Source: Chloranthus sessilifolius
Taxonomy: Eukaryota; Streptophyta; Magnoliopsida; Chloranthales; Chloranthaceae
Direction: 5' to 3'
NCBI GenBank assembly: GCA_021018995.1
Contig: CM037595.1
Span: forward strand, 90,649,491 to 90,713,490
Length of the DNA: 64,000 nucleotides
Shown: positions 1,855-62,415 of the stretch, one piece after another
Position numbering within the stretch: the first letter of the stretch is position 1
How the letters are laid out: each line of letters begins with the position of its first letter
Notes under the pieces: generated by a model
Told to the model about the DNA's origin: nothing
What the model saw: the letters and a program-made list of their open reading frames with translations, nothing else
The model's database searches: none
Program-made: the position numbers and the translations under genes

Positions 1855-1860
1855 AGTTTT

Positions 1861-1878
1861 TGGCGCCGTTGCCGGGGA
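1861..1878 (+). promoter_or_regulatory. Primer binding site (tRNA-Asp type)
   Basis: The motif TGGCGCCGTTGCCGGGGA lies six bases after the probable LTR end (AACA at 1851-1854). It is complementary to the 3' end of plant tRNA-Asp, the primer that Athila-type elements are known to use for minus-strand DNA synthesis. It fixes the element as forward-oriented and places its 5' LTR at 219-1854. Confidence 0.85.
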
Positions 1879-2109
1879 CTTTGTTTAGAAAACAAAAGAA
1901 GAGTTAGATTAAGTTTTATCCTTCTACTAATCTCACTTTAAAAAAAAAATTCAAAAAAAAAAAAAAAGTCAAGAGCAAGTCAAGGTTTTAAGGCAGTGGG
2001 GCATGAGCACGTGGGGAAGTGATCAAGCACGTCGATTAGTTCGTGTTGACTCTTTTTCACCCGTTAATCTATGGGTTGAATTTGAGGTTGAACAAGAAAT
2101 TTATTCCAT

Positions 2110-3384: not shown

Positions 3385-3387
3385 CGC

Positions 3388-3967
3388 ATGAGTAATAGCA
3401 TGTGCAGTCAATTACTACCCTTAAGTTTGGGCGAAAAATTGATAACCATGTTAGGTTGCCTGAAGTTTAAGAAAAAGAAATTGAGAAATCTGAAGATGAG
3501 GGGAATAAAAACTCTCATGAGAAGATGGAAAACAAAAAAAATGAGTGAAATCATGGGTCTTGTGTTTGAACAGAAACCAACGGTTCAAAAGTTTATTCCC
3601 AAGGCCCCATTTCTCAAAGATTGTGCTAAGAAGAATAACCAGCTAGGTGATATTCTTTAGGTGTTTAAGCAAGTTCGTATAAATATCCCATTCCTAAATG
3701 CTATCCAACAGGTTCCTTCTTACGTCCTGTGTTTAAACAGAAACCAACGGTTCAAAAGTTTATTCCCAAGGCCCAATTTCTCAAAGATTGTGCTAAGAAG
3801 AATAACCAGCTAGGTGATAATCTTCAGGTGTTTAAGCAAGTTCGTATAAATATCCCATTCCTAAATGCTATCCAACAGGTTCCTTCTTACACTAAATTTT
3901 TGAAAGACTTAGTTACGATCAAGAGAAAGACCAATGTTCCAAAGATCTTTTTAGCTGAGCACGTGAC
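3388..3967 (+). pseudogene. gag-protease linker remnant
   Basis: Frames at 3388-3660 and 3729-4025 carry the stretch IPFLNAIQQVP followed by a lysine-rich segment. In Athila elements this stretch precedes the aspartic protease. The protease itself, with its usual DSG-type active site, is missing because foreign sequence begins at about 3968. Part of this region is directly duplicated, which also breaks the frame. Confidence 0.65.
3557..3890 (+). repeat. 167-bp direct tandem duplication in the gag-protease linker
   Basis: Unit one (3557-3723) and unit two (3724-3890) are nearly identical. For example, the tract starting CAGAAACCAACGGTTC occurs at 3571 and again at 3738. The offset of 167 is not a multiple of three, so the duplication alone shifts the reading frame. 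High identity between the units suggests it arose late, after the element was already dead. Confidence 0.9.
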
Positions 3968-4744
3968 GCGGGACAAAACCCTAAATTGCGTGAATGCTTA
4001 TGAGGTAATGATTTGTCGAAATTAAATTAGATTAATTAAACAATAAACCTGAAAATAAAGTGGATACCTTAGGGTTTCACAATTTTTCATTGGAGAATCG
4101 CGCTTGATTCGAGTAGGGTCCGGTCCGTGCGCTAGATCCGTTAGCCTTGCAGTGTAGATCGATTCTAGAGGTAGAACACTGGCTATTCCAGATTAGGGCG
4201 TCGCTCAGGATTCAATGATGGAATCGCGAGTGTTCTAAGGGTTCTGATTCGGTTTGGTTTAATGGTTTGGATGAGATATGGGCTTGAATCGGATTGATTC
4301 GAGGACTCAAATGGGAACTAGGGTTTATAAACTTCGGGGTATTTGAAGGTTGGATAGCTGGATTTAGGATTTTGATATTGGTTCGAATCAATAGTTCGGA
4401 GTTGAAAATTTTGGGAAAAGATAATGGCTGGATTTAAGGTTTATGGGATCAAAACAAAGCAGAGAAAGAAAATAAAAGATAAAGAGAGAGAGAGATAGAA
4501 GATAGATTTTTGGCTTCACACCAAACTCTTCTCGGGAAGTGAAGAACCACTCTTCAATCATGGCTCATCTCAAGCACACAAGCAATAGCTTTCATTCATA
4601 ATCAATAACTAATTACATTGTTTTTTAAAAAGACCTTATATAGGAACTCTTAAAATGAAACCCTAAAACAAAATAAGAAAAAAGAAAGACAAGTTTGCCC
4701 CTTAAAACTCAAATTCGAATTCTGGTGGATCCCATTCTCGCGAC

Positions 4745-4749
4745 AGTCG

Positions 4750-4784
<35 letters not shown>

Positions 4785-4837
4785 CTCTGGTCACAATTCA
4801 GTCGATCAATCGACACCTAGTACTCGATCGATCGACT

Positions 4838-4881
<44 letters not shown>

Positions 4882-4950
4882 GTCAGAATTGAAGCCCTCA
4901 CTAGGCATAGTCAATCGATCGAATCCGGGTGTCGATCGATCGACTATGCA
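4745..4950. repeat. AT and GT microsatellites between TCGATCGA palindromes
   Basis: An AT tract (about 4755-4780) and a GT tract (about 4850-4880) are separated by several copies of palindromic words built on TCGATCGA. An example is GTCGATCGATCGAC near 4934. The predicted frames on both strands here (a run of VCVCVC or THTHTH) are microsatellite artefacts. Confidence 0.85.
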
Positions 4951-5089
4951 TTTGCTCCAGCAAGCTGATTCTTTAAATCCAGTTCTGGTTTTCGTTCCGC
5001 TTCTTCCAACGCAAAACGGTCTGTATCCGATGTCTACAATGTCAGCGTCCCCGTCAATTCTCTCGGGCCGAACAGGCTTCATCACCGAT

Positions 5090-5641
5090 GAAGCAGCGTG
5101 GTGATAGCGATCGAGCATGTCGGGATTCAGGCATCGCACCTCGTCTTTAGTTAACCATGTATTCTTGGAGTCCAGCTGTCCCATCTACTTAACCAAGTAT
5201 TTCTGAAATCCTCCACCATGGGTGGATACCGCAAAATCATCAAGTATCCCTTCGATCTCATCTCTCCTCTGCCTGCGTGGGAAAGGGAATGGTAGAGGTT
5301 GTAGGGTGGGGCTGGAATTTGGACCCAGGTCTGCTTGGAAGGGGTTGGTGGGGGTGGGGTTGACCCCAAAGAAGAGACTAGGTCCTCCACATTAAACGTA
5401 GAGCTGACCACAATATCCGACAAAAGTTCGAGAACATACGCATTAGGCCCGCTCCTTAGCACAATTCTAAAAGGCCCAGCGCTGCGGGCTTCTTTGTGAC
5501 TCCCGATGGAAGTCGTTCAGGCCTAACCCGAACCATTGCATGATCATTTAATTGGAATTCCATAAAAGCCTTAGGTAACTGCATCGATATTTTGAGAGTT
5601 TCATTGCATAAATTAATTTTAAGCTTAATTTCGGCATGCAA
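5090..5641 (-). pseudogene. Chromovirus integrase C-terminus and chromodomain remnant
   Basis: Reading on the minus strand from 5641, the frame contains DHAMVRVRPERLPSG, then NAYVLELLSDIVVSSTFNVE, then after a break KWMGQLDSKNTWLTKDE. In plant chromoviruses this is the order of the integrase C-terminal GPF/Y region, the polyprotein end, and a chromodomain-like tail that directs integration to heterochromatin. Frameshifts near 5456 and 5180 split it into three frames. The match to the family is from memory, but all three words are characteristic. Confidence 0.7.
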
Positions 5642-5662
5642 TGCGAAATGAGACTCAAAAGC

Positions 5663-6204
5663 TTAATTCCAACACGGGTTCAGACCAGTTGGAGAGTTTG
5701 CATTGACTACAAAAAGTTAAATTTAATGACGAGGAATGACCATTTTCCTCTTCCATTCATTGATCAAATGCTAGAAAGGTTGGTTGGTTGGCCATATTAT
5801 TCTTTCCTTAACGGTTTTTCCGGCTATAACCAGATTCCCATAGTGTCAAAGGATCAAAAGAACACTACTTTCACCTGTACTTTTGGGTTCGCTTATCAAC
5901 GCATGCCTTTTGGATTATCCAATACACCTGCTACTTTTCAAAGGTGCACGATTATCATTTTTCTGACATGATTAAGCGTTTCTTAAAGGTGTTTATAAAT
6001 GATTTCTCCGTCTTTGGATCTAGCTTTGATACATGTTTACACCATTTATCTCCCATCTTAGAGCGGTGCAAAGAAATGAATCTTGTTTTGAACTAGGAAA
6101 AATGTCATTTTATAGTGAAGAACGGGAATGTTTTAGGGCATGTAATATCTGAAAAGGGAATTGAGGTGGATAAGTCAAAAGTTGAGTTAATTTCTAATTT
6201 ATCA
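5663..6204 (+). pseudogene. pol: Athila reverse transcriptase remnant, catalytic motif damaged
   Basis: The frame at 5636-5971 enters the RT core at GWRVCIDYKKLN-like residues (here SWRVCIDYKKLN) and runs through FPLPFIDQML and FSGYNQIPI to RMPFGLSNTPATFQRC. Past a frameshift near 5965 it continues with FINDFSVFG at about 5995-6020 and a GHVISEKGIEVD stretch near 6140. Active relatives read FMDDFSVFG here, so the first catalytic aspartate of the DD pair is replaced by asparagine. The N-terminal part of RT is gone with the nested fragment. A MITE interrupts the domain at 6213. Confidence 0.85.
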
Positions 6205-6212
6205 CCTCCAAC

Positions 6213-6376
6213 CAAGGATCAAAATTTCGGCCGAAATTATTGGTTTCGGTCCCCACCGAAATGATAATTTGGACCGAAATTTCAGTCCAAATTTGTATGG
6301 GACTCAAAATTTCGGTTCAAATTATCGGTTTCAGTCAAGTCTGAAATCGATATTTTACCCGAAATTTTGATCCTTG
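6213..6376. mobile_element. MITE with perfect 18-bp TIRs and 8-bp TSD
   Basis: The 164-bp insert begins CAAGGATCAAAATTTCGG and ends with its exact reverse complement. It is flanked by the direct repeat CCTCCAAC at 6205-6212 and 6377-6384. Removing the insert and one TSD copy restores the retrotransposon frame, which confirms the borders. The 8-bp TSD fits a hAT-type origin, although the TIR is not a classic hAT sequence. The interior holds more copies of the words CCGAAATT and TTCGGT. A second copy is at 13937-14184. Confidence 0.93.
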
Positions 6377-6384
6377 CCTCCAAC

Positions 6385-6990
6385 AACTGTGAAAGAAGTT
6401 AGATCATTTTTTGGACATGTAGGCTTTTACCACAAATTCATAAAAGATTTCAGCAAGATTGCAAAACCCTTATGCAGTTTGCGGGCTATGGATGCCCCAT
6501 TTATACTTTATTGTAAGTGTTTAGCGACCTTTGAGAGAATAAAATCAAAGTTAACATCAGCAATCATGATCCGACCGCCAAAATGGAGCATGCCTTTTGA
6601 GATTATGTGTGATGCATCTGATTATGCGATTGGTATTGTGTTGGGGCAGAGAATCGGTAAACTTCCTCATATGATCTTTTACACTAGCATGACTCTAAAT
6701 GATACACAATTGAACTATTTCACGACAGAGAGAGTTGCTGACAGTGGTGTTTACTTTCGACAAATTTAAATCATACTTGTTGGGATCAAAGGTCATCGTC
6801 TAATCGGATCATGCAGCTCTTAGGTACCTTTTTGCTAAAAGGGATGTTAAAGCACAACTGATCAGATGAGTATTGTTGCTCTAGGAGTTTGATATTGAAA
6901 GTTTGGACCAGGGATCCGAGAATGTTGTAGCTGACTATTTGTCCTGTTTAGTTGTTGAATTTTCTGAGAATTTCGTGCCCACCACAGAAA
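6385..6990 (+). pseudogene. pol: Athila RT connection and RNase H remnant
   Basis: The frame at 6374-6769 contains VRSFFGHVGFYHKFIKDFSK (the connection domain after RT) and then FEIMCDASDYAIGIVLGQR, the usual start of the Ty3/gypsy RNase H with its first catalytic aspartate. Downstream, frames near 6780-6960 keep fragments of the rest of the domain with stops. This segment belongs to the same polyprotein as the RT before the MITE. Confidence 0.8.
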
Positions 6991-7099
6991 CTTTCCCTAA
7001 TGAACAATTGTTATATAGCTCCTAGTTGCCTTAGTTCGCAGATATTGTCAATTATCTTGTAACGAATCAAATGCCCTTGCATTGGTCTAAACAAGATCG

Positions 7100-8332
7100 A
7101 TCAAAAAGTTTAGCTTAGGTGAAACATTTCTTTTGGGATGATCCGTACTTATTGAAGTATTGTCTCCATCAAATAATAAGGAGATGCATCCCTGAAAGTG
7201 AGCATCAAAATATCATCTCTTTTTTTCATGATCAAGCATGTGGAGGCCACTTTAGTTCTAGGAAAACTGCTGCAAAGATTTTATAATGTGATTTTTATTG
7301 GCCTACCATTTTTTAAGATTGTCAGGCATTTTGTGTTAGCTTGTGAGCATTGTCAAAGATTCAGAAGCATTTCAAAACATAATATGATACCACTAAACCC
7401 CATTTGATTGTTGAGATATTTGATGTTCGGGGCATTGATTTTATGGTCAAATTCTTTTGGCAATTTGTACATCCTTGTCGCAATCGATTATGTGTCAAAG
7501 GGGGTAGATTATGTCTAAGTGGGTAGAGGCTCTTGCTTGAAAAAACAATGACCACAAGGTGGTGGTCAAATTTGTGAATGATAACATTTTTGCTCATTTT
7601 GGTAAACCATGTGCTATTATTAGTGAGGGTGGAAATCATTTTTGCACTAGAGTTTTTGAGCAATTGTTTAAGAAATATGGCATAAGCCACAAGGTTGCGA
7701 CTCCTTAGCACTCACAAACAAGTGGTTAAGTTGAGATATCCAATAGGGGACTCAAGCGCATTTTGGAGAAAAAGGTAAACCCCAACAGGAAAGATTGGGC
7801 ATTGAGACTAAACGATGCATTGTAGGCTTACCAAAGTGCATTCAAGACTCCCATCGGAATGTCTCATTACCGAATGGTGTATAGCAAGGCATGTCACCTC
7901 CTTGTTGAGATAGAACATAGTACATATTGGGCCATCAAAAGACTGAATTTCGATCTCAACAATGTAGGTACTCACATAAAGCTACAATTAAATAAGTCAG
8001 AGGAAATTTGGGTTGATGCCTACGAGTGTGTTAAATCGTACAAGAACCAAATGAAACAGGTCTATGATCAAAAAATTTTGATAAAATCTTTTGCATCTGG
8101 TCAGAAAGTTCTTTACAATTCTCGTTTGCATTTATTTCCTAAAAAGTTGAGATCTCGATGGACAAGTCCTTTTGTTGTTCGTACTTTCTACTCATTTGGA
8201 GTTGTTGAACTTGAGAATCCTTAGATTGGTGATGTGTTTAAAGTTAATGGTCAGCGATTGAAACCATTTTTAGAATTGAAAAATGCAGAAATTGAAGAAA
8301 TGCTCTTGGAGGATCCTGTTTATCAGGATTAG
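7100..8332 (+). pseudogene. pol: Athila integrase remnant
   Basis: A zinc-binding N-terminal part (CGGHFSSRKTAAKIL-like) lies near 7240-7280. The DDE core follows at about 7425-7870, with the words GIDFM, a degenerate ISEGGNHFC and KYGISHKVATP. The C-terminal region follows at 7859-8332 and ends EDPVYQD with a TAG stop. Several in-frame stops and at least two frameshifts are visible, so it cannot encode an integrase. The order RT, RNase H, integrase confirms Ty3/gypsy rather than Copia. Confidence 0.85.
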
Positions 8333-9089
8333 TTTTTGTAATCTGATGGACATACTTTAATTAATTTATAGTAGTTCTGTTTTGTTTCATTTATCTAGTC
8401 TTGCAGTATTTGATTTCTTTTGGCAACGGTGTTCATGGTGTTAAAATATTCAAGTGTGTTTTACCATTTTCCTTATCTTCAGTTTATTTTCTCAATGATA
8501 ATTATCATTTTGCTCTCCATGCATTCATGTGTATCATTTTTTTAGGACGCTTGTAAACAACAAATTTGCGTGGGATATAAATCTAACACAAATCAATCAT
8601 AACAAATTTTCCCTCGCTAGGAGAGGGTTTTATTAAAATGGCGGACCTTACACTTCCGGATATCGCAATCGATTCCCTGTTAATGACATCAAGATTGAAT
8701 ACCTCTGATTAAAAGCTACTAAATAAAATAACGTAATTACATCTCTGAAATAAACAAAACTAAAATCCTAATTTTAAGTCTTCATCGACAACTTCAATCT
8801 GTCATGAGATAAATGCATAACAGACTATCTTTATCGGAGATTTGAGAAATATGAAATAGGGGACGACGGATGGGAGAACCCCTCCTCCAAAAGTCGGTTC
8901 CATTTGATCGAAAGTACGAGTCATTACTGGAGCAAGAAACTCGTGGATGAGTCTTAAAACGAATTCTTGTTCTCTAGTCTTAAAGATGAGTTCGAATACC
9001 AAATTCATTCTTCGGGGAACTGGTTATCAAAGGAGTTATCACTTTCAGTGATAGAGTGTCTAATCATGAGTTAGATATCGCCAAATTCC

Positions 9090-9680
9090 TTAAAATTTGA
9101 TGATCATAAATGATTTTATAATGATTTTACCGTTGGATTTGACCAATATCCTCATATTTGGTTAATGTATAGTAAATCCACCGTTGGATCTTGTTACGAT
9201 CTCGCAGTATGATCATTTGACCAAAAATCAACGATTCCACCGTTGGATTTTATCAAATTCATAAGATCTGGTCAATACGTAATAAATCTACCATTGGATT
9301 TCGTTACGATCTCATATTATGATCATTTGACCAAAAGTCAATGAGTTCACTGTTAGATTTGGCCAGAATCACAAGATCTGATCAATACATAATAAATCTA
9401 TTGTTGGATCTCGTTATGATATCACATTATGATCATTTGACTAAAAGTCAATAAGTCCATCGTTAGATTTGACCAGAATCACAAGATTTGATCAATATGT
9501 AATAAATCCACCATTAGATCTCATTACGATCTCCCATTATGATCATTTGACCAAAAGTCAATAATTCTACCGTTGAATTTGACCAAAATAATAAGATCTG
9601 GTCAATATGCAATAAATCCACCGTTGGATCTTGTTACGATCTCACATTTATGATCGTTTGACCAAAAGTTAACAAGTACA
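9090..9680. repeat. 110-bp tandem array, about five copies
   Basis: The word GATCATTTGACC(A) recurs at 9211, 9321, 9431, 9541 and (variant) 9652, giving a steady 110-bp period. Each unit also contains two CCACCGTTGGAT-type words. The units are diverged by point changes but keep their length. It lies inside the LTR unit 8552-11437. Confidence 0.92.
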
Positions 9681-10367: not shown

Positions 10368-11275
10368 CATAACCACCTAGGTGGCTAAGTATTTTTTCTA
10401 GTCACCTAGGTGGCTAAGTATTTTTTCTATCCACGTAGGTGGCTAAGTATATTTTTCTAGCCACCTAGATGGTTAAGTATTTTTCTAGCCACCTAAGTGG
10501 CTAAGTATTTTTTCTAGCCACCAAGGAGGCTAAATATTTTCCCTAGCCACCTAGGTGACTACATATATTTTTCTAGCCACTTAGGTGGCTACGTATATTT
10601 TTCTAGCCACGTAGGTGGCTAAGTATGTTTTCTAGCCACCTAGACGACTAAATATTTTTTCTAGCCACCTACGTGACTAAGTATTTTTCTTAGCCACCTG
10701 GGTAGCTAAGTATATTTTATAACCACCTAGGTAACTAAATATATTTTCTAGCCACCTAGGTGGCTAAGTATATTTTCTAGCCACCTAGGTGACTAATATA
10801 TTTTCTAGCCACCTAGGTGGCTACGTATATTTTCTAGTCACCTAGGTGGCTACGTATTTTTCTAGCCACCTAGGTGGCTACGTATATTTTTCTAGTCACC
10901 TAGGTGACTAAGTGTATTTTCTAGCCACCTAGGTGGCTAAGTATATTTCTCTAGCCACCTAGGTGGCTAAATATGTTTTCTAGTCACCTAGGTAACTAAA
11001 TATATTTTCTAGCCACCTAGGTGGCTAAGTATGTTTTGACTAAATATATTTTCTCGGCACCTAGATGGCTACGTATATTTTTCTAGCCACCTAAGTGGCT
11101 AAGTATATTTTCTAGTCACCTAGGTGGCTAAGTATGTTTCTTAGTCACCTAGGTGACTAAATATATTTTTTAGCCACCTAGGTAGCTACATATATTTTCT
11201 AGTCACCTAGGTGGCTAAGTATATTTTCTAGCCACCTACGAGGCTAAATATATTTTTCTAGCCACCTAGGTGTCT
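10368..11275. repeat. Palindromic minisatellite, about 31 copies
   Basis: About thirty-one units of roughly 29-31 bp follow one another. The consensus core is TAGCCACCTAGGTGGCTA, a perfect 18-bp palindrome centred on CCTAGG, followed by a T-rich spacer such as AGTATATTTTC. Many point variants keep the symmetry by pairing, while others break one arm. One deletion near 11035-11045 removes part of a unit. The array fills most of one half of the LTR unit 8552-11437. Confidence 0.95.
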
Positions 11276-23497: not shown

Positions 23498-24675
23498 GTG
23501 GAGATTTATTTTGGGAAAATTTATCAGCCCGACCCTATTAGATGTATCTTTTACTGCAAAGACCCTATAGTTTCACCTTTACCCAAATCGCCGAGTTGGA
23601 AGTCTAGCCGACCCTAAGAACAACAAAAAGTCCAAATTACCCTCTTTCTTTAACTCACAAAAATATTATCTTCTTCCTTATTTTAATCTGCTACAGTTTC
23701 TAAAAATCAAAGGTGGTGAAAGAGACGACGCCTTCTCCTCAATCCAATCTATTCCGATCTGCTATTTGGATCGACCCAAATATACCTTTGTAAGGCGATA
23801 TCGCCTCTTAAAAAAAATAAATAAATAAATAAATTTTAACAGTCGATGCCGACTCTTAACACAGTCGATGCTGACTCTTAAAATAGTCGATGACGACTGT
23901 ATAAAAAAAAAAAAAAAATTATACAATCGATGGATTGTGTAAACAGTCGATGCCGACTGTAAAAAAAAAAAAAAAAAAAATTTATATAGTCGATCGCCAT
24001 CGATTGTGTAAGCGATGCCATCATTATTATTTTTATTTTTTATTTTATTTTTTTTACAGCATCATCGATTATTAAAGATCGATGTCATTATTAAAACGAT
24101 CGGCACCGATTGTATTAAAAGTCGTCATCGACTATTTTAAGAGTCGGCATCGACTGTGTTAAGAGTCGGCATCGATTGTATACACAGTTGTTATCGATTG
24201 TGTAAGCGATCGATCTTGCATTGATAAAAAATTAAAAAAATTATCGATCGATGATGGCAAGTATACACGATGCCATTGCCATTTTTTATACGATCGATGG
24301 CGTGTCATCGATCATATAATTTTTTATTTTTTTTTTAACAGTCGCGCCATCGATTGTGTTAAGAGTCTATATCGACTGTTTAAATTTTATTTTATTTTAT
24401 TTTTTTCAAGAAGCGATATCGTCTTACAAAGGTGTATTTGAGTCGATCCAAATAACAGATCGAAATAGATTGGATTAAGGAGAAGGCGTCGTCACCTTCG
24501 TCACCTTTGATTTTTAGAAACTGTAGCAGATTAAAATAAGGAAGAAGATGATGTTTTTGTGCGTTAAAGAAAGGGAGTAATTTGGACTTTTTGCAATTCT
24601 TAGGGTCGGCTGAAACTAGCTTCAAATTTGATGATTTTTTGGTCCATCTTACATATAAAATAAATCTTAAAATGA
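23498..24675. mobile_element. 1.2-kb foldback element upstream of the 23305 gene
   Basis: The left arm (about 23600-23810) and the right arm (24407-24615) are long inverted repeats. CCGACCCTAAGAA at 23608 pairs with the stretch ending at 24612, and GGCGATATCGCC near 23793 pairs with a diverged copy near 24412. Weaker pairing continues outward to AGATTTATTTT near 23502 and its inverse near 24660. The middle is an array of short palindromes. It has no coding capacity; the frame at 24392-24625 reads arm sequence. Its near edge is about 190 bp upstream of the start codon at 23305. Confidence 0.8.
23828..24400. repeat. Degenerate array of AGTCGATGCCGACT palindromes
   Basis: Words such as AGTCGATGCCGACT, AGTCGGCATCGACT and ATCGATTGTGT recur about every 20-35 bp, separated by A/T tracts. 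Most are imperfect palindromes of 12-16 bp. Units are in both orientations, which follows from their symmetry. The array forms the loop of the foldback element. Confidence 0.85.
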
Positions 24676-33765: not shown

Positions 33766-34304
33766 GTGTTTTGACTGATTTTATGGTCACAATTTGACTA
33801 TTGTCTAGGCATAGGAAAATTCTAAGACAATTCATCAACATGTATACATGAGTGTATACCATTTCTATTAAATTTAAGCCTCTAATTCATCATGATTTAA
33901 TCAGCACAAATTCTGAGGTGAAACTGTGTAGATCTGCCTGGTATAGTATACCTGAAATATGGTTGAGATTGAGCATGTGAATCCCTTGATGTAAGTTGGC
34001 CTAAAAACTCTATAAAAATTCTGAGATGGAGATATAACAGTGTATTATCATTGTATAAAATTTTAAATCTTAATTCGATGTCATTTGACCGGTAGAAAAT
34101 CCAGAACCCGAGAACGCAGAAATTCGTTCTATGTGACACATCTAGGGTCACTAAAATATCGGGTCTAAAATTTAACATAAAGAAATGCCTCAATGCAGAA
34201 GGACCTTGATGCAGTCACATCTCATTTGACGAAGGTACTAAACCATTTCTTTTTAAATTTGAAAAAATTATATGTTTTTAAATATTAATTCCAAATACGC
34301 TTGT
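31118..34304. other. Repeat-like region, probably LTR-element remnants
   Basis: No intact gene is present. The minus-strand frame at 31851-32048 (acidic, ending SADYYY) has no recognised family. A CT-rich stretch at 33230-33300 runs into TGCTCCAGCCACCATTAGAG, resembling the leader of plant gypsy LTRs. Around 32550-32600 a phrase on a GATGGGATATTGTCC stretch also looks like LTR sequence. No paired LTRs or TSD could be defined. An AT microsatellite is at 33700-33760. Confidence 0.4.
33698..33760. repeat. (AT)n microsatellite
   Basis: About 31 uninterrupted AT dinucleotides. Similar long AT tracts lie near 39772-39820, 43936-44010, 44125-44171, 44479-44540, 61133-61178 and 61483-61512. All are length-variable candidates and sources of false IYIYIY frames. 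Confidence 0.98.
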
Positions 34305-34478
34305 CGACCGATAATGTAAATTATCGTCCGACAACTTACATTATCGACCGATAATATAAGTTATCGGCCGATAAGTTACATTATCGATCGATAATGTAAA
34401 TTATCGACCGCTTATTTAGATTAGCAGACGATAAGTTACATTATCGACCGATAACTTATATTATCGGTCGTTAATTTG
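34305..34478. repeat. Array A: nine 20-bp palindromic units
   Basis: A six-base near-palindrome (CGACCG, CGGCCG, CGATCG and variants) begins at 34305, 34325, 34345, 34365, 34385, 34405, 34425, 34445 and 34465, exactly every 20 bp. Between them lie 14-base cores such as ATAATGTAAATTAT and ATAAGTTACATTAT with inverted ends. The array lies about 60 bp upstream of the Ulp1 start codon. Confidence 0.97.
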
Positions 34479-34535
34479 ATCCCAAATAAAAAAAAAAATT
34501 ATAAATAATGACAGTTTTTAATATATTTTGTAATT

Positions 34536-35344
34536 ATGCAGGATAATATTCTTTCGTCTGTTTTATTTGAAACCTTCGTTCCTCCTGCCACTCAGCCTAC
34601 AGCTTCTAAACCCACTGCTCCTCCACCAAGCCGTCAATCCACTGCCCCTAAACCCTCTGGCCTAAAACCCACTGCTCCCCAACCTACCCATCAATCTACT
34701 GCCCCCAAAACTTCTTCCCCTAAACCCTCTGGCCCAAAACCCACTGCTCCCCAACCTATCCATCAGTCAACTGCCCCCAAAACTTCTTCCCCTAAACCCT
34801 CTGACCCTAAACCCACTGCTCCTCAACCAAGCCAAAAACCCACTGCTCCTCGACCTACCCATCAAATCACGACCCTCAAAACTTCTGGAGCTCCTCCACC
34901 TCCTACTAAACAACCCTTTGTGGAAGTCGGTGATGAGGGTGTTCCTCTTACCCAGCCTTCTCATGAGTCACAACCGACATCCCTCAAATCAATTTTTATT
35001 AAACTATCAACTGAAAAAAGTAAAGCCGAGGGATATGACTTGCATGCTCGGAAGAAGAGAAAGACTCCGACAAGTAAAGTCATTATAAAAAAACCAAGAT
35101 TGGTTCTGGAGGAGGAGGAGGATGAGCGAAAATCGATGGAGCACAAATATATGCTCAGTTTTTAGAATCGGCCGGAGGGAGAGGACAATGTGATTGTCAA
35201 TACTGTCATGGGTGTTGACATCACAGTTGGCCTTTTAAAGGTTCTCAAAGGACGCTCGTGGCTTGACAATGAAGTCATCGACGCATACTTGAGAGTCCTT
35301 GAAGTTATCAACGATCAAACGTTCACGGCAAATGCCGAACGTTG
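34536..35344 (+). pseudogene. Ulp1-type protein, proline-rich N-terminus and start of protease domain
   Basis: From ATG at 34536 the frame encodes about 115 residues of Pro/Ala/Lys/Thr-rich repeats (period near 24 residues, with words KTSSPKPS and KPTAPQP). A basic stretch, ARKKRKTP, and an acidic stretch, EEEEDE, follow. A TAG at 35163 interrupts it, but the same frame stays open to 35344 and contains GRSWLDNEVIDAYLRVL, the opening of Ulp1/C48 proteases (substrate-binding W-L-x-D). The nonsense codon is thus probably a single late mutation. The basic stretch could be a nuclear localisation signal. It faces array A. Confidence 0.75.
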
Positions 35345-35444
35345 ACTTAAGTTATTATTTCGTTTCTTTTATTTTTTTGTTTTTTCATTCACACTTCTTT
35401 TAATTTATTTACTTATTACATAATTCTGTTTCAAACCATGTTTA

Positions 35445-36107
35445 TAGTGGACGAGAAAAAATATGAAAAATTTATCAATGATGAAGGTCTAGCTGCACTT
35501 AGCGATTTCGATAAATGGCAGGCCTACTGAAATGAGTGGAAGGTTCGTAACAATATAAAGCCGCTTGAACCATTACTCACAAATGATAAACGCGAAATTC
35601 ACGCGGTAGACTGTGGAACAGTATATTTTTTAATACTACACTTCGCTTTATTTAATGTTAACGGCTTTTAAATAAAATAAAATTAATTATTTAAAATTCC
35701 GTTTCCGTTTTTATGCGGATTTATCTTCCGATGCATAGCCAAAAATATAGCCACTGGGCGTTGGCTATAATTTCATTAGTTGATCATGAAATTAAATTAA
35801 TAGATCCAGCAGACTGAGAGTGCTCAAAGAGATTCGAAGAGCATAAAGGGTGTCTATTGCATCACCTTCCGCGTCTTTTTTACGCTATCGGTTTAAAGTC
35901 AGCTTTCGATCAACAGTGGAAGGTATCGGCGTTCAACAGTGTCATTCTACCGATCCAAACCAACGGTTGGGACTACGGTGGTGTATATGTTTTGAAGTAC
36001 ATGGAATACTTCTCTCAACGGCGGAATATTGATTTCGAAGAAAAACAAATGCAACAATTTAGAGCCAAAATCGGGCATTTAATGTGCACGATTGGGAAGA
36101 AGAGTTA
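35445..36107 (+). pseudogene. Ulp1-type protease domain, catalytic part
   Basis: After a T-rich stretch that looks like an intron (ends TTTATAG before 35449), coding words resume. SHWALAI at about 35749 holds the catalytic His (codon 35752), followed by LIDP, which is a likely Asp position. ILPIQTNGW near 35945 holds the oxyanion Gln. The next residues are DYGGVYVLKYMEY, whereas active family members have DCG. So the nucleophile Cys is replaced by Tyr (codon 35974) with an extra Gly. In-frame stops are at about 35528 and 35816. C48 proteases release SUMO-like modifiers; this copy should be inactive. Confidence 0.75.
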
Positions 36108-36295
36108 AACTACTTTATTTCATATCTTTGTAAAATTTTATAGATTATTTTTATATATAGATTTTTGTAACAATAACAACTTGTGTAATTTTCGTTGTAT
36201 CAATTTATCCTAATTATCTAACAATTCTTTATAAACATTATAAAAAGACTTGTATTTAATCTTCAGATTTCACAATGGCCGCTGACTTAAGTTAG

Positions 36296-36421
36296 CATTC
36301 GATAACTTAAGTTAGCGTCCGATGACTTAAGTCATCGGCCAATAACTTATGTTAGTGGCCGATGACTTATTTTAGCGGCAGATGACTTAAGTCATCGGTC
36401 GATGACTTATGTCATCGGCCA
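36296..36421. repeat. Array B: seven 20-bp palindromic units
   Basis: Hexamers CATTCG, CGTCCG, CGGCCA, TGGCCG, CGGCAG, CGGTCG and CGGCCA begin at 36296, 36316, 36336, 36356, 36376, 36396 and 36416, every 20 bp. The 14-base core is ATGACTTAAGTCAT (a perfect palindrome) at 36322 and 36382, with near variants elsewhere. The array sits between the 3' ends of the Ulp1 and mudrA genes. Confidence 0.97.
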
Positions 36422-36685
36422 ATAGATGATTAATGGTCTCCTTGTGACATGGCCGCCATTAAGTCATCGGCAGCTGATTATTCGCTAAAAATTAGCTTAT
36501 GATACTAAGGCCATGTTCTCAAAAGTCTATTTGGATGATGAATGATGATTAATGATCTCCTTCATCTGATCCAAAGCAGTTTATTTTGAATCGTGAAATG
36601 TAGCCCAAAGAAATCTGTCAAGTAATATAAGTTAATTTCACGTGAATTTATAAACTATACAGTCCACTTGTGCTCCATGTGGCAC

Positions 36686-39363
36686 TCAAATTCTAACAAA
36701 TTTACACGAGCGACGGTTATGACCGTATTTGTTACAATTTTTACATCGCAGTGGTCGAACTTCGCCTTTAAATCTTATTCTCCGTTTCTTCGGACGACCG
36801 GCTTGACGTATTTTGTGCGGAGGCAAAACTTGAATGTCATCTCTTTGCGAAGTCCATTGACGTTTGTCAACGGTCGGGACAAAGTATTCTTTATAAGTTT
36901 CCCTAAATAAGTTACTAGTAAACCAGTGCTCACAAAATTGGGGGATCTCTCTTTCTCTGTTTCGGCCCGATAATGTGACGATCGCATGTGAACATGATAA
37001 TCCAAGAATAGCCTTAACGTCTACATGTACATGTTCGCTTATCTAGATCGACACTGTGAGTGTAATCACCATGTTTAACTTGAAATATATCGCGACCGTA
37101 TGGTATAACATTTTTTCGACGGGCCCATCCTGAATTTCGTGTTATGTGTTTTTCGGCCATCGGTGTTAACACGTGTGTCATTTTATTTTCTTCCTCCTAA
37201 CAGCGAAGATAAAATTCGACTACCTTTGTGCAAATAGTTTCTAACATGCTCACGATCGATTCTTCCCTTGTTATTTTCAACACACTATTTATGCTTTCAG
37301 CTATATTAGTTGTCAATATATCATAACGCCTCCCTTGAAAATAAACATGCGCCCAGAAATGATCACCAATTTCTTTAATCCATTTTGTACATTTCGGGGG
37401 GGGCGTCGTCTTCGATTTTTTATATAATTCTTTTAAATTTTGCTTCCGAAAATGCACGGGCAGCAACCCAGAAAAGCGGTCTAGAGATTGTATCCCTATA
37501 TGTATCAAACAGATTTAGAGCTAGGTGTCGCATACAGTAGCTGTGAAAGGCATTAGGAAAAACTTTTTCCACAGCTTCTATCAAACCTTTCTGTTTGTCT
37601 GATATCAATACAAATTTCTCTTCAAAGTCACCGATTACACGTCTCCTTAATAGATCAAGGAACCATATCCAATGATCTTCATTTTCTTTCGGTACAACGT
37701 CGAACGCTATAGGGAATAAATGTCTATTCCCGTCTATTCACATAGCTATTAACAACACTCCATTGTATCGTCCACGCAAATGCGTTTCATCTACGGATAT
37801 TATTCTTCGTAAAGTATTACGAAAGCTTCGAATACAAGGTCCGAAAGTCACGAAGAATCTCTAAAATGCATATCAGGCTCGAGACACAATTCGGTCTGTA
37901 CGTCTGGATCGACCCGCTGTAATTCGACGACATATGATGGTAACATCTTAAATTGCTCCTTCCAGCTACCTCGGATGTCAATCAACGCCATTTCTTTTCC
38001 TCTCCATGCTTTCCAGTAACCTACTGTTATACCGTATTTTTTTTCAATATAAAAAATTATTGAAGCAAGAGTCTCGTCAAAGCCCTTTAATAGCTTATCT
38101 CTCACGAATGAAGCTATCCACGATGTCGTACATTGGCGATGTCCGCTTCCGAAAGCTGGCATTTCGCATGTATGTTCCGGGTGGAAAGTTTTCACAGCAA
38201 ATGTGTCCACACCTACTAATTTCGATGCATGTATTCGTCAAGCATATCCTACTTCAACACACCTCGCCGTAACTCGAAGAGGACTGGTTTTTATTAGTTT
38301 AATCTGAAAATTATTTGCCATTGCAAATTCTTTAAAAAAAATTTGAAAGGATTCTTATTTCTAAACGCCTGACCAATGGTAATTGGTCCCCCTTCATATA
38401 TTTCCTCATCATCTGAATCCATATACTCTCCTTCCGAGTCATTAAGCTGATAGTCTTCATCTACCAGAGGTTGATCAATTCCCCTATTAGTATGAACATG
38501 CGAAGTGGGAGACGGCGGTGCTTCATTATTTTCAGGATCACTATCACAGTCATTGACTGGATGGTTATTACATGATTGGGATTGAGCCCGTCTACGTTTG
38601 GTTAATGTGCAGTTGTTTGGATTGATGTTGGTCGATGCAGGAATGTTTGATGTACGAGAGGCTGTTGTGTTGAAAGCTCGATTATCGTTGGCTCCGAAGC
38701 TATTAGTTCGAAAGGCCATTGATATGGACTAAGGCCGACTAAAAACATTTCCCACTAATTTATCGAATCGAGGTTGAACTGAAATGTATTATGCATCGGA
38801 TTCATTTGATGACAATATCCTTGATCTTCATCTCCTTTACTCATTGGAATGTCTAAAGAGGGTTGCTCCAGAAGCCTACTGTAGGGGTAAAATCCTACAT
38901 TCAAATTTCTATCATCGTCGACTATCATCGGTGCAGCGATGCTCTCCTCTTCAAACTGTATTTCTTGATTTCCAATCAAATGTTCTGTTCTCATACCACC
39001 ATCATCTTCGTTTGTTTCCTGGAACGGTTGAAATGCTTCTAAAGACGGTATATTTTCTGCGGCGGTAGTGACTAATGATTTTTCGATATAAATATTTATC
39101 ACACCATCACCAATACGATATGCTCTGAATAAGTTTGTAAGATCATCAAACTCAGACAATTCAGCAAACACAAGCTCATTCACTATGCGTAATGAAACCG
39201 TTAGTGTAATAGAATGTTCTTCCGGTCGTGTCCTACTGACCTTATACATTTTCTCCATAAACTCATCAAATGACAGTGATAATCCTCCGATGTCCTCCGT
39301 TGTAAGTATTATCTCCCACACGGACGAAATCAAAATGGTAAAGAAGTGGAACATCCATTTCAA
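36686..39363 (-). pseudogene. mudrA-type transposase, lightly damaged
   Basis: On the minus strand the order is an acidic N-terminal region (39363-38294), then ITIGQAFRNKNPFKFFLK. A MuDR DNA-binding part follows with VKTFHPEHTCEM (38180). The DDE core contains ISVDETHLRGRYNGVLLIA (first Asp codon about 37790), VLISDKQKGLIEAV (second Asp about 37599), HSYCMRHLALNL and ARAFSEAKF (likely Glu). A SWIM zinc finger starts at CTC (about 37030). A C-terminal zinc knuckle, CKNCNKYGHNRRSCK, lies near 36705-36755. Stops occur near 38255, 37740 and 37200, and frameshifts near 37430 and 37020. The protein would be about 850 residues, normal for the family. It cuts and joins element ends in active relatives. 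Confidence 0.88.
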
Positions 39364-39475
39364 CCTACAATATTTTATAAAATGAAAATTGATTGGTTAA
39401 AAGGGTAATACTTGACTTAGCGCTATAATATTAAAAAATAAAAAATTGGTTGGTTAAAAGGTTATCTTAATATAT

Positions 39476-39589
39476 CGGTTGATATCATAGGATATCGGCC
39501 GCTATCTTAAGATATCGATCGATATCTTAGGATATCAGCCGCTATCTTAAGTTAGCAGCCGAGATCCTAAGATATCGACCGATATCTTA
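39476..39589. repeat. Array C: six 20-bp palindromic units
   Basis: Hexamers CGGTTG, CGGCCG, CGATCG, CAGCCG, CAGCCG and CGACCG begin at 39476, 39496, 39516, 39536, 39556 and 39576, every 20 bp. Cores are built on TATCTTAAGATA, a perfect 12-bp palindrome at 39503. The array lies about 110 bp upstream of the mudrA start at 39363. Confidence 0.97.
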
Positions 39590-39768
39590 CCTAGCTTGGT
39601 CTACCTAGTATATGTTAAAAACGAAGGGAAAGTAATATTTTACAAAGATAATGAGAAAATATCTTACCTAACTTGTTGTAGTTCTTTGAGTTATACCAAC
39701 TGTAGTCGAATCTCCAAATCGCAATCCAAGAAAAAGTATTTTAAATGGGCAAATAAGCATAGAGAAGC

Positions 39769-39827
<59 letters not shown>

Positions 39828-41395
39828 TAAAAGGCGGTTTTGCTGATGTGGAACCAATTAAGCTTGGAGTTGGCCTGTTATGCAAGTGATAAAACTATAG
39901 GGTCATTTCTGCAAATACGCAAACTTATAGGGCCGAAAGTACAAAATTTTCAAATATATATGCCACTTGGCTAACAAGTGTTATAATAGAGTGAGTGGTC
40001 AAAATTTAAGTGCACCAATTGAATGAGTTAACTCCTCTAATAAACATAAATTCTAAGGCAACTGATTTTTATATATATGTGCCGCTTGCCTCAAATGTGT
40101 CAAAACACAAAGATTTGGTCACATTACTGAAAGGGTTGGTATTAGTTGGTATTGTGCGTTCACCGGTAAATCTCTCCTTCTAGAGACAGATATGTATTTA
40201 TTTCATTTTATTTTTAAGTACATTTATAGATTAATTGTGTCTTTATTTGCTAGCTAGGATAAAGTATTATAGCCATACAAACTTTGTGGGTAACTCTGTT
40301 GGCACCTACCAACTTAATTAAAGCACCTATGATCAAAATTATTGATTAATTTAAATTAAATGATGAAGATTATTTTTTATTCTAATTATATGTGCATTGG
40401 ATCTTGAGTTCATAAGCTTACTATTCGACAGTCAATTTTCTCATTCCACATAACACACATCCTAAAAGTGACCTATAAATCAAAGGGTAACTTCAAACTC
40501 ACCCACTGAATCTTGAGGGGTATCTACCCCTAAAAAATTGATTATTTTAAATCAAATGATAAAGATTGTGTTTAGTTCCAATCTTCCACAAAAGGGATCT
40601 TGAGATCATGATGCACCTATCATACGGTCAATTTTTTATTTCACATGTCACATATCTCAAAAACTTAATCCTAAAGTCACATTTTTTCAAACTTGATGTT
40701 AGGGCTACTTTTTTTATAAATTTGTGATGTGTGGAATAAAAAGTGATCATTTGACGGTACGTTCATAGTTTCTAAATCCTTGTAGAAGATCAGAGCGAAA
40801 AATAATCTTCATCATCCAATCTAAAGCAATTAATGATATTAAGCGTAAGATTCGATGGGTGCGTTCAAGGCTACCCAATATCAAATTGGAGCATGATATC
40901 ATACAAAATTTATATCTACTTAGAGCACCCTCCAGCAGAGAAAATAAAGTGACGAAGGAAGAAGGTTGCTGGCACTAGGCTTTCCATTAATTGCTCAAAA
41001 CATACAACCAGGCTCATAACTCATAAGTCAAAGACACGAGGGAATCCATCCCCAGGGTTCACACTAGGCTAACTTCATTTGCCATCTTTCTATGATTCTA
41101 TTTGACTTCTCTAGATAACGACAATTATCCAATGGGCAATAATAAAATAGGAATTTGATTCCAAACTGCTATTAACTAGATGGGACTTGGGGTGACATTA
41201 TTTGACACTAGGCATGCATTCACAAATCTAATTGCTCAGCTTTTGTTCTATCATCTAGAAACAGCCCAAATATCATGTTGACCGGACGATTCAAACCATC
41301 AGATTTATTTAATCAGGACCATTATTTATTTAGTCTTAGAAGCTCTTAATGAGATGGTGGATATTTGGACTAAATCTCATCTAAGAACAAATACT
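39590..41395. other. Intergenic region with a foldback-repeat copy
   Basis: It contains the AT microsatellite 39772-39820, and at 40530-40900 a roughly symmetrical repeat. The left half has GATCTTGAGATCATGATGCACC and TTTCACATGTCACATATCTC. The right half carries these words inverted. A further half-copy is at 40310-40480. The same family recurs at 52660-54130 and 57610-58560. No gene seen. Confidence 0.6.
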
Positions 41396-43748: not shown

Positions 43749-43931
43749 GAGCATCTCCAATAAGGAGAGTTAAATTTGGATAGCTAAACACCACTTTAGC
43801 TATTGTAACAGTAAAAATCACACCAGCAAATACTCTATTTTAGTTACTCTTTGTTTTAAATATTATTTTTCATTCTTATTTTATTATATTTTACTACTCA
43901 CACTCAATTTTTAAATATTTTATTTTTCTAT

Positions 43932-44014
<83 letters not shown>

Positions 44015-44122
44015 AGAGAAGAGAGAAAGAGTTTTATATCCAAAAATAATATTTTATTATTTTAACTCTTGCTATAATTTGAGGAGTTTGGAGAGCTATA
44101 ATAGATTCGGAGAGGTTTTTAG

Positions 44123-44176
<54 letters not shown>

Positions 44177-44308
44177 TAAACACAGAAGAGAGAAAGAGTT
44201 TTATACCCAAAAATAATATTTTATTATTTTAGCTCTTACTACAATTTAGAGAGTTTGGACAGCTATAATAGATTCCGAGAGGTTTTTAGCTTCCTAGTGG
44301 AGATGCTC
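43749..44308. mobile_element. GAGCATCTCC MITE with AT tracts and a duplicated half
   Basis: The ends are GAGCATCTCC and GGAGATGCTC, a perfect inverted pair, flanked by TTA and TAA. The right half (44010-44120) is repeated at 44174-44295, starting from GAAGAGAGAAAGAGTTTTAT. The two copies are separated by a second AT tract. Long AT tracts lie at 43936-44010 and 44125-44171. Confidence 0.88.
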
Positions 44309-44474
44309 TAAAGTAATATATAACTCTTTAATATTTAAATGAAAAATGAGAAAATGAGTTCAAATGGACATCGTGAATGCACAAAAGGAGAATGAGTTCA
44401 AATGCACAACGTGAACTCTTCCTAAGTTATGCGTCCTCTAAAAGGTCATCTGCCCTGTGGACTTTAAGAAAACA

Positions 44475-47446: not shown

Positions 47447-49530
47447 ATGATGCGCTCCACGGAGTATCCAACCTACTCTGCAACCCGAGCCTTCCTCGGC
47501 CGTTCGATCCTCAGCATCCGCCGTAACCAAGTAGTCTCCATGGAACCCAACGAAGACCAAGTGTTCGAACAACTCCAACTCTTTCAAAACCAGGTAGCCG
47601 TCCGATTACTCGACCTCTCCCCGTCATCATCATCAGACCGTCTACTCTCAATCTCGTGGCTCCAGAAGCTCCTCGACGCCTTCCTCTGCTGCGAAGAAGA
47701 ATTCAAAGCCATCGTCTTCTGTAAAGCCAAGCCGCCGATCGATCGGCTCCTAGCCGACTTCCTCGACCGCGCCCTCAAGTCCCTCGACATCTGCAATGCC
47801 GTTACTCACGGCGTGGACTCCCTTCAACGCCGTTACAAGCAAGCTGAGATCGCCGTCGCTGCACTCAATCAGACGCCGCTCGGCCAAGCGCAGATTCGCC
47901 GGGCAATCCGCGCGTTGAATTCGATTCCAGCTGGTGCTGATGCGGGCGACGGGTACGGCACGGGGGAGCGTGCGTGGTCGTTTGGGCGGAAGGGGAGCAG
48001 CAGTAGAGGCGGCGCCGGCGCAGTTGTCACTGACGGGGGCAGCGCACATTCGCGGTCTCCTTCGGGGACGTGGTCGGCCGCCAAGCAGGTGCAGTCACAA
48101 AAAAATCGTTTTTTTTGGTCTTTTTCCCGAAAAAATCGTATAAAATGCGTCTTTTTATGTTTTCTCAAAAAAATTCAGTTGATTTCCTTTTATTTCTTCT
48201 TTTTTGTTTGCATTTTTTTCAGAACGTCTTTACTGCCGTTCTTACCACTATGCTCCGATATTTCCCCCTTTATTCTCATATTTTCGATTTTGATTTTCCT
48301 TATAAAAACTTCAAAAAAAAAAATTATACTTTCTCCATTTTCCTGTGAATTTTCTCAAATTTTCATAACTTGATGTATTTTCTCAAATTTTCCCCAATTT
48401 TCCTGTAGATTACGCATTTTCCCCTGCCGTCGTCTTATTTGCGTACTCCGTCTTCGTGAGTCGATGAGCAGATGCAGGCGATGGCGGCGAATTTAGCTCC
48501 GTCACAACGGGTGGCGGAGATCGGAGAGCTAGATCTTTTCCACCCAAAAAAATCGTATAAAAAGCTTATAAAATGTGTCTTTTTCCATGATTTATTATTT
48601 ATGTTTAATTTTTATAATTTCTCGAAAATAATCTTGGTTTTTTCCATGCACTTCATTTTTTTTTTTTACAAAAATTTTCATTGCCGTACTTACTCGTGCA
48701 CTCCGATTTGTCCCTTTTATTCTCGTACTTTCAATTTTTTTTGTCCGTATAAAAACTCATAAAATGCGTCTTTTTCATAGTTTATTCATAAATTTTATAA
48801 TTTCTCGATTTTCCCGATTTTTCATGTACATTCCGTTCTTTTCGAATTTTCTGAGTTTTTCCTTTGCCGAAATTTTCATAATTTAATATATTTTTCAACT
48901 TTCCCCAATTTTCCCTTACATAAGTTTTTCGGAGTTTTTCCCTTGCCGAAATTTTTATAATTTAATATATTTTTTAACTTTTCCCAAATTTCCAATGAGC
49001 AGGTGCAGGCAATAGCGGCGAATTTAGCTCCGCCACCGCGTGTGGCGGAGATCGGAGGGCTAGGATTGCCCGTGTACACTATGAACCTGGTTCTGGTTTT
49101 CGTGATGTGGGCGCTCGTAGTAGCGATACCGTGCCAGGACGGCGGCAGTATAACGATGCATTTTCCGGTAGTGGCACGACACTTGGCGTGGGCAGCCCCC
49201 ATGAGTAGATTGCATGACGGAATTGTGGAGGAATGGAAGAAGGAGAAAAAGGGGTGGGCTGGATTGTTGGAGGAGCTGCAGAGGTTGGAGAGTTGCAGGC
49301 AGGAATTGATGGAAGTGGGAGATTCTGCGAGGTTTCCAATGGCAGAAGAGCGAGCGGCGGAGATCCGGCGGATTGCTGCTGATCTAACGGAGATCTGTAG
49401 GAATATGGAGGATGGGTTGGGTCCTTTGCGGTGCAGAGTCAGGGAGGTTTTCCATCGGATCGTAAGAAGTAGAGCAGAGGTTCTTGATTGCTTGGATCAA
49501 GCGAATCGATCTTCAGCGGTGTCGTTTTAG
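47447..49530 (+). CDS. ROH1-family protein, two exons
   Basis: Exon 1 is 47447-48088 and exon 2 is 49003-49530; the intron has GT at 48089 and AG at 49001-49002. Phase is 0 on both sides, giving 389 residues. Exon 1 encodes FLGRSILSIRRNQVVSME, SWLQKLLDAFLCCEEEFKA and LDICNAVTHGVDSLQR. Exon 2 has a hydrophobic segment around VYTMNLVLVFVMWALVVAI and ends with REVFHRIVRSRAEVLDCLDQA. These are hallmarks of the ROH1/BYPASS1-related (DUF793-type) family. Arabidopsis ROH1 binds Exo70 exocyst subunits and affects secretion (known from the family). ATG at 47450 is also possible; family members start shortly before the TEY word, as here. No break is seen, so the gene looks functional. Confidence 0.92.
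48089..49002 (+). other. ROH1-like intron with internal duplications and a decoy exon copy
   Basis: The intron is built from repeated segments. A block from about 48110 to 48320 recurs at about 48540-48760 (shared words AAATCGTATAAAA and CCGTTCTTACCAC-like). The segment 48472-48534 is a close copy of the first 63 bases of exon 2, including its AG acceptor. A third duplication of about 85 bp lies at 48840-48920 and 48925-48992 (TTGCCGAAATTTTCATAATT). See findings. Confidence 0.85.
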
Positions 49531-61184: not shown

Positions 61185-61475
61185 GGTGTCCGTCCTCCAA
61201 GCTTCCACGTGGCACCTAAAATATTGCTTCGATGCCACGTGGAGCTCGGGTGCATTGCTTAGATCATCTTTGAAAAAAATAATAATTGAAAGCTCATCTC
61301 CACCGTATGTTTTTTGAACCGTGAAATGTAGACTAATGAAACTTGTCAAACTTTGACTTATAGGTTTAAAAAGTTTTTTTCAAAATTTCTTTTTTTTAAT
61401 ATTGATCTAAATCGTCCACTTGTGCTCCATGTGTATCTTGGAGGAACGTTACCGTCCTCCATTGGAGGACCTAAC
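61185..61475. mobile_element. MITE-like insert with CCTCCAAG and CACGTGG words
   Basis: The left part GTCCGTCCTCCAAG and CCACGTGGCACC, and the right part GTGCTCCATGTG and CTTGGAGGAAC, are inverted with mismatches. The TTTTTTGAACCGTGAAATGTAG word recurs in diverged form near 36585. Borders approximate. Confidence 0.55.
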
Positions 61476-61902: not shown

Positions 61903-62415
61903 TAGTAGAAAACAAGGGCTACTTTCAAAAATTATTGTGGTTAGACATTTTGATTAAAAATATTAACAAACAATCTCTCCATCATTTAATTCAAATAAAT
62001 CCCATATATTATTAATTTTTAATTCCTTTGAATTAGATGATAGAAATTAAACCCAATTTTCTTTTTGCGTACCATAGATCTTCAAATCAAGGTATCAAAT
62101 ATCGGCTGATACCAATACGTATCGGTATCAATATCGACTGATATGTATCGAGTATCGGCTGATACGTATCTAGTATTGGCTGATACTTATATTTTTAATT
62201 TTAATAATTATTTTTTAAATAGGCACGTATCTGTATCGATCGATTCATTTTTATTTTATTTTATATAAAATAAAATAAAAATGACCCGACTACGAAGAGC
62301 ATCGATGCTCGGGTCGGCTGCCTAGTACCAACTCTTTGCCCTTATCCGCACAGCACGTACACAGCATAAACGCAGCAGCTTTAAGACTTCGAGCAAACGT
62401 TCGCAGAAGACCGAC
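61903..62415. other. Spacer with a TATCGG-rich repeat fragment
   Basis: At 62090-62250, words such as TATCGGCTGATACC, TATCGACTGATATG and GTATCTGTATCGATCG recur; they match the fragment at 30255-30450. The GC content then rises (62285-62400) towards the promoter of the 62514 exon. Confidence 0.5.

Follow-up and report, generated by a model that had tools for sequence, protein, structure and literature searches.

How a transposon frees only its own copies from host silencing is an open question that the literature has addressed for Arabidopsis. The question is raised here by a locus in a 64,000-nucleotide stretch of contig CM037595.1 (positions 90,649,491 to 90,713,490; hereafter the window), which holds a Mutator-like element (MULE) with a mudrA transposase gene, an Ulp1 gene and three tandem arrays of palindromic 20-bp units, designated A, B and C. 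These arrays are genuine, lie well outside what chance would produce and recur in other copies of the element. It is more likely than not, at a probability of about 0.6, that a VANC-like protein encoded by the element binds them and would thereby keep host silencing off.

Arrays in the window

The arrays were located by Tandem Repeats Finder and a repeat search of the window. All three have a period of 20 bp without a slip, as the initial annotation had described. Chains of dyads with exact 10-bp spacing reached 8 (A), 7 (B) and 7 (C) links, whereas in 30 first-order Markov simulations of 64 kb the longest chain had at most 3 links. TA microsatellites were the sole other chains of four or more links in the window. 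The units are not exact palindromes, however, as had been stated: from 10 to 20 of their 20 bases are self-complementary, and each array contains one perfect unit. The common building block of A, B and C is a 10-bp half-site, YCGAT-NN-CTT (written 10 bp long, outward from the CG dyad), whose orientation alternates and whose middle varies by array, being AA in A, GA in B and AT in C.

To compare the arrays, a motif was learnt from two of them and scored on the third, with the threshold at the 99th background percentile. Recovery in the correct register and strand reached 12 of 17 half-sites for A, 14 of 15 for B and 9 of 12 for C, and the motif also marked three positions of C that are out of register. 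This cross-array recovery indicates that the three arrays share one site and differ in its middle. Thus, the claim that each array has its own core is true of the middles, whereas the remaining half-site is common. Mean half-site identity was 0.70–0.78 within arrays and 0.63–0.65 between them. Within arrays, same-strand and opposite-strand identities were 0.755 and 0.758 (A), 0.718 and 0.698 (B), and 0.753 and 0.778 (C), with no clear same-strand excess. This pattern is compatible with both half-site selection and a perfect palindromic ancestor and decides nothing between them.

Other copies of the element

We searched the host genome (2.17 Gb, 32 contigs) with array A and scored the best 40 of 1722 first-look candidates. 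At least 29 further loci were obtained, and all 29 carry the element around the array; the 20 that were extended to 10 kb are the basis of the per-copy counts. An array was considered detected if it had five or more half-sites. The expectation that other copies would have the arrays was borne out: B was detected in every one of the 20 copies and C in 15 of them (A, the search query, is in all 20 by construction). The best 40 of 1033 first-look candidates were scored with array B as the query. The number of half-sites scored per run was 15–32 for A, 5–28 for B and 5–13 for C. The middle of array A was AA in all 20 copies, and C had its own middle in all 15 copies in which it was detected; the middle of B was GA in 16 copies and AA in 4 (L033, L035, L045 and L048). 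The view that each array was homogenised alone agrees with A and C, and less so with B.

Array size changes mostly by 20-bp steps, so that helical register is kept while unit number varies. The intron containing array A was 297, 316–320, 337–339, 438–440, 458–459 or 479 bp long in the 20 copies, and modulo 20 no length deviated by more than 2 bp from a single residue. Lengths of the intron containing array C, obtained by fuzzy matching in 18 of the 20 copies, shared one residue in 12 cases and did not in 6. Three coding segments, compared in 18–21 copies including that in the window, showed ~93% pairwise identity.

The upstream gene and a fourth array

To the left of the point matching position 34143, all 28 other loci compared with copy L003 as the query continue for at least ~1.2 kb; therefore, this position is a truncation point of the window copy. 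The sole copy traced to its left end, L051, reaches ~1.9 kb beyond it. In other copies the upstream part holds an open frame with PMD, a candidate DUF1985 match, an acidic stretch and a coiled coil. Two copies were scanned, and PMD scored 40.4 bits in L008 and 35.9 in L009 (cut-off 34.9), while the same residues scored 33.7 bits (E 4e-8) and 23.6 bits, respectively, for DUF1985 (cut-off 35.1). The PMD/DUF1985 piece had no relatives in PDB; no relative scored in a protein search, which carries little weight because proteins much longer than the query were excluded.

In L003 the upstream frame enters the stretch matching 34143–34234 in phase and closes at a GT donor, and the Pro-rich exon opens in phase 0 after TTATGCAG. 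The donor is GT in 20 of 20 copies and the acceptor AG in 17 of 20. Donor, acceptor and phase thus place array A in a predicted intron, and its description as lying 5' of Ulp1 was misleading, since this intron would belong to a longer gene. On the mudrA strand, array C starts directly at an AG/GTAAGA-like donor (GT in 20 of 20 copies), and its intron ends at an ATTGTAG-like acceptor; of the 18 copies that gave a usable match, 14 have AG there. A fourth array with the same half-site, array 0, was detected in L051 in the predicted first intron of the VANC-like gene and was present in 4 of 4 copies examined (L051 and three others). Arrays 0 and A are therefore predicted to lie in introns of the VANC-like gene and C in the first intron of mudrA. 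The initial list of three non-coding positions was incomplete, as the four other copies read further left have the fourth array.

The terminal inverted repeats (TIRs) of L051 are 146 bp long, are 86% identical between ends and contain no array. A possible 9-bp target duplication, AAGAAATTA / AAAAAATTA (L051 left, L032 right), matches at 8 of 9 positions; the ends were placed by eye within A-rich sequence. On the right, homology stops between 39938 and 39958 in copies where this could be read. Because the window copy is left-truncated, a search for TIRs and target-site duplications in the window alone gave nothing convincing. A MuTAnT-like, TA-targeting element (PMC4486113), suggested by the flanking TA tracts, was considered and dropped after comparison with other copies had revealed where the right end lies and that the window copy is truncated.

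Genes of the element

The assignment to Mutator-like elements with an Ulp1 gene was confirmed, as pieces of the MULE domain PF10551 and of Ulp1 (PF02902) were found; a mudrA transposase with a MULE catalytic domain is present. A read-through of mudrA had 25 relatives in a protein search, with 25–38% identity, the named ones mostly from flowering plants, and copy L041 retains a 670-aa open frame (PF10551, 76 bits; PF03108, 44 bits). Viral contigs gave no match to P0001. The catalytic Cys of Ulp1 is replaced by Tyr in the window copy and in L041, and is retained in 13 of the 14 copies readable there (6 of the 20 other copies were unreadable at this position). The features are listed in Table 1.

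Table 1. Element copy in the window: features and their window coordinates
Feature	Position	Strand	Remarks
Left-truncated PMD/DUF1985-Ulp1 Mutator-like element, family I	34143..39955	.	right end approximate
Coiled-coil end of PMD/DUF1985 exon, remnant, closing at GT donor	34143..34234	+	in frame with upstream exon of L003
Predicted intron 2 of VANC-like gene, contains array A	34235..34541	+	phase 0
Array A	34304..34477	.	17 in-register half-sites; consensus CCGATAATTT
Pro-rich and Ulp1 (Peptidase_C48) exons, short introns, broken here	34542..36108	+	PF02902 E 4e-10; matches SENP2/Ulp1 structures
Array B	36277..36420	.	15 half-sites scored, consensus CCGATGACTT; between converging 3' ends of two genes
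mudrA transposase (DBD_Tnp_Mut, MULE), stops and frameshifts in window copy	36686..39364	-	PF10551, PF00872, PF03108
Predicted first intron of mudrA, contains array C	39365..39590	-	donor/acceptor in other copies
Array C	39463..39589	.	12 half-sites scored, consensus CCGATATCTT; end abuts mudrA splice donor
Right terminal inverted repeat	39781..39955	.	177-column match, 80%, to L051 left end

To the right of array B, short pieces within 36540–36690 are 84–100% alike to sequence at ~61190–61440. The segment 36440–36690 passed the length filter in only 10 of 20 copies, so some of it may have been inserted later.

A second family with 21-bp units

Locus L035 contains a family I derivative without most of mudrA (844–3625 of the locus), which directly adjoins a second element (~3700–9500). 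The latter, designated family II, shows 65–78% DNA identity to parts of the window element and, in the PMD/DUF1985 region, 65% protein identity to family I. Just before its Pro-rich exon are seven palindromic units of 21 bp with the half-site CCGCTATC, between a donor and an acceptor that, read by eye, are equivalent to those of the family I intron. The 21-bp array was found in this intron in three family II copies. Two of these were recovered by the array itself: it was used as a query, the best 40 of 327 first-look candidates were scored, and the two matches fetched show 92% identity to the L035 relative in alignments of 799 and 867 columns.

The family I motif marked 10 positions in the L035 family II array, spaced by 10 and 11 bp or multiples of these, with one position in the preceding 280 bases and none in the following 85. 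Five scattered positions were marked in the 495-base intergenic stretch of the same element. In family I, too, a minority of half-sites have C at the fourth base. The intron containing the family II array gave no blastn match to the window intron. The sister families thus keep a related half-site at different spacing, 20 versus 21 bp, and the motif differs between them, as it does between related VANDAL families.

Relationship to known systems

The motif bound by VANC21, YAGTATTAY, forms dense arrays of one orientation in VANDAL21, both in introns and in the non-coding regions between genes and at the ends; VANC21 induces loss of methylation, VANC6 uses other motifs, and published VANCs show DUF1985 and DUF287 (PMC5735166). 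The initial statement that no comparable layout had been described was therefore too strong. The regions targeted by VANC are the same ones attacked by RNA-directed DNA methylation (PMC10398659). According to a 2026 review, Ulp1 is present in a subset of VANC genes, genes of this type act on their own kind, and Ulp1 was captured at the monocot–eudicot split and conserved in eudicots (PMC13317346).

The present element resembles VANDAL21 and VANDAL6 of Arabidopsis (Hosaka 2017, PMC5735166; Sasaki 2023, PMC10398659) in being a MULE that encodes a putative DUF1985-type protein, in having tandem repeats of a short motif in introns, between genes and at ends, and in a family-specific motif whose arrays contract and expand. 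It differs from them in the motif itself, in that PMD outscores DUF1985, in the ~146-bp TIRs and in the probably non-eudicot host. With the Ulp1-carrying VANC and KAONASHI MULEs (PMC13317346; in grapevine, PMC2528002) it shares Ulp1 in a gene opposite to mudrA, but KAONASHI elements are described there as non-TIR, whereas TIRs are present here. Absent or degenerate TIRs, a VANDAL trait, do not describe the one copy with both ends; a MULE survey reports that certain VANDAL-clade members have TIRs of 46–174 bp. Multiple repeated binding sites per element, predicted here, are also a feature of Galileo, where the transposase-bound THAP sites lie in long TIRs (PMC3688188), whereas our arrays are outside the terminal repeats.

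Candidate function of the arrays

The match in domain make-up, array positions and motif turnover leads us to read the arrays as probable targets of the element's own protein. Tandem motif arrays occur in parts of a protein-encoding element that predicted introns and open frames mark as non-coding. The binder would be a VANC-like protein composed of a PMD/DUF1985 domain, an acidic and coiled-coil stretch, a Pro-rich linker and an Ulp1 domain. In family members this protein may bind the 10-bp half-sites along introns and the intergenic stretch. It would probably do so as a dimer, given that adjacent half-sites are turned towards each other one helical turn apart. Once bound, it would clear away or block host silencing marks and thereby keep the two genes expressed. 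Whole-unit gains and losses, through unequal exchange or slippage, could allow the arrays to lengthen, shorten and evolve in step with the protein. The proposal in the initial annotation, sites for an element protein in a helical-phase design, is supported in kind; the binding, like the introns, the dimerization and the anti-silencing, is what we infer.

The transposase, one of the binders proposed initially, is less supported. The mudrA protein might bind the arrays as subterminal or internal sites, promoting synapsis or regulating its own expression: dyad-symmetric sites fit a dimeric transposase, C adjoins the 5' end of mudrA, and arrays 0 and C are each ~350 bases from the respective element ends. 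However, the TIRs are separate and hold no array, B is central, A is well inside the element, and C is undetected in a quarter of the copies. We consider this explanation unlikely, and the neighbouring gene, given its VANC-like domain make-up, is a better candidate for the binder than the transposase.

It is rather improbable that the arrays are host-factor or autoregulatory cis elements bound by a plant transcription factor and serving as intronic enhancers, as insulators or, in the case of B, in bidirectional termination or as an antisense block. Their location in predicted introns and between converging genes would suit such a role, and RNA folding of one strand per array is far stabler than that of shuffles (z -11.5, -12.0 and -10.0), but any palindromic array folds strongly, and the same half-site both in introns and at 3' ends would be odd for a promoter or terminator signal. 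The arrays are equally improbable as neutral minisatellites, functionless palindromic DNA expanding by slippage and carried by the element: although unit number varies among copies, no extra conservation was seen in the arrays and the window has another palindromic minisatellite, four positions share the half-site and the 10-bp register (except at the start of array 0) with differing middles, and a family that is 35% different in the tested protein region retains a related half-site, spaced at 21 bp, in an intron without a blastn match to that of the window.

Several observations weigh against the arrays being targets of a VANC-like protein. The other minisatellite (10373–11272; ~29-bp units with GCCACCTAGGTGGC plus CTAAGTAT...TTTTCTAG) is unrelated and overlaps no recognised part of a MULE; a palindromic array is thus not in itself remarkable in this window. 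Array C was undetected in L031, L032, L034, L045 and L047, the GA middle of B is absent from four copies, and the first few half-sites of array 0 in L051 are 11 bp apart instead of 10. CpG retention was 0.88 (A), 0.85 (B) and 0.73 (C) in half-sites, which were picked by a CG-favouring motif, and 0.78–0.88 elsewhere in the copies; this similarity means that there is no mutational trace of local hypomethylation. With regard to the protein, the DUF1985 matches are below the cut-off, DUF287 was not among the Pfam matches of the scanned pieces (no full-length intact protein was scanned), and the family II frames gave a weak PMD match only (19.3 bits). A B-like array was not seen in the intergenic stretch of the one family II copy read. 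The half-sites alternate at 10-bp spacing, unlike the one-orientation arrays of VANDAL21 (PMC5735166), and the VANC core motifs AGTATTAY and AGTTGTMC are absent from our arrays. A likeness of the half-site to the VANC6 motif AGTTGTCC, taken as AGTNNTC, was noted post hoc (3 in A, 7 in B); array C (0) does not uphold it, and it is kept as a lead.

Host gene and other features of the window

A host gene of the ROH1/BYPASS-related family is present at 47449–49530; its relatives carry PF05633, and the best match, from Magnolia, is 54% identical. In a FastTree tree of 22 relatives, chosen from 120 listed and 465 found, the window gene is sister to magnoliids (support 0.97) on a long branch. Since monocots and early-diverging angiosperms were left out of this tree, we conclude only that the host is probably not a eudicot.

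Three further features were noted in the window. Interrupted 22-bp repeats (TCGGCATCGACT-like) occur on both strands at 23838–24360, between A-rich tracts, and resemble inverted arms of the kind found in miniature inverted-repeat transposable elements. A non-autonomous-looking element at 43750–44310 is bounded by inverted, GAGCATCTCCA-like ends and contains a duplication of 167 bp around TA tracts, and a short array of TATCGGCTGATAC-like words with a period of ~21 bp is located at 62090–62190.

Implications

An element of this family can have as many as four arrays, copies are numerous, unit numbers form a ladder and a sister family is spaced differently, so the contributions of motif, density and helical phase become testable in this system. 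A 2022 study by Sasaki et al. reportedly found that, in eudicots, gain and loss of DUF1985, DUF287 and Ulp1, together with motif sequence, density and helical periodicity, decide the targets. The principle of such targeting is known, and it is probably the geometry, the four-array layout and the probably non-eudicot host that are without counterpart in the literature searched. VANC-type arrays that are palindromic, or that occur outside eudicots, did not turn up in that search, which did not extend to the key papers of 2022 and 2013.

We tentatively suggest, as something possible but short of probable, that VANC-type self-targeted anti-silencing operates outside eudicots, with dimers on alternating 10-bp half-sites, four arrays in each element whose middles are array-specific, and 20- or 21-bp spacing, as well as base sequence, separating the sister families. 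If the host lies outside eudicots, as the one-gene tree suggests, the strategy dates earlier. If the suggestion as a whole is true, the origin of VANC-type systems would predate eudicots, and spacing together with base sequence would form a specificity code.

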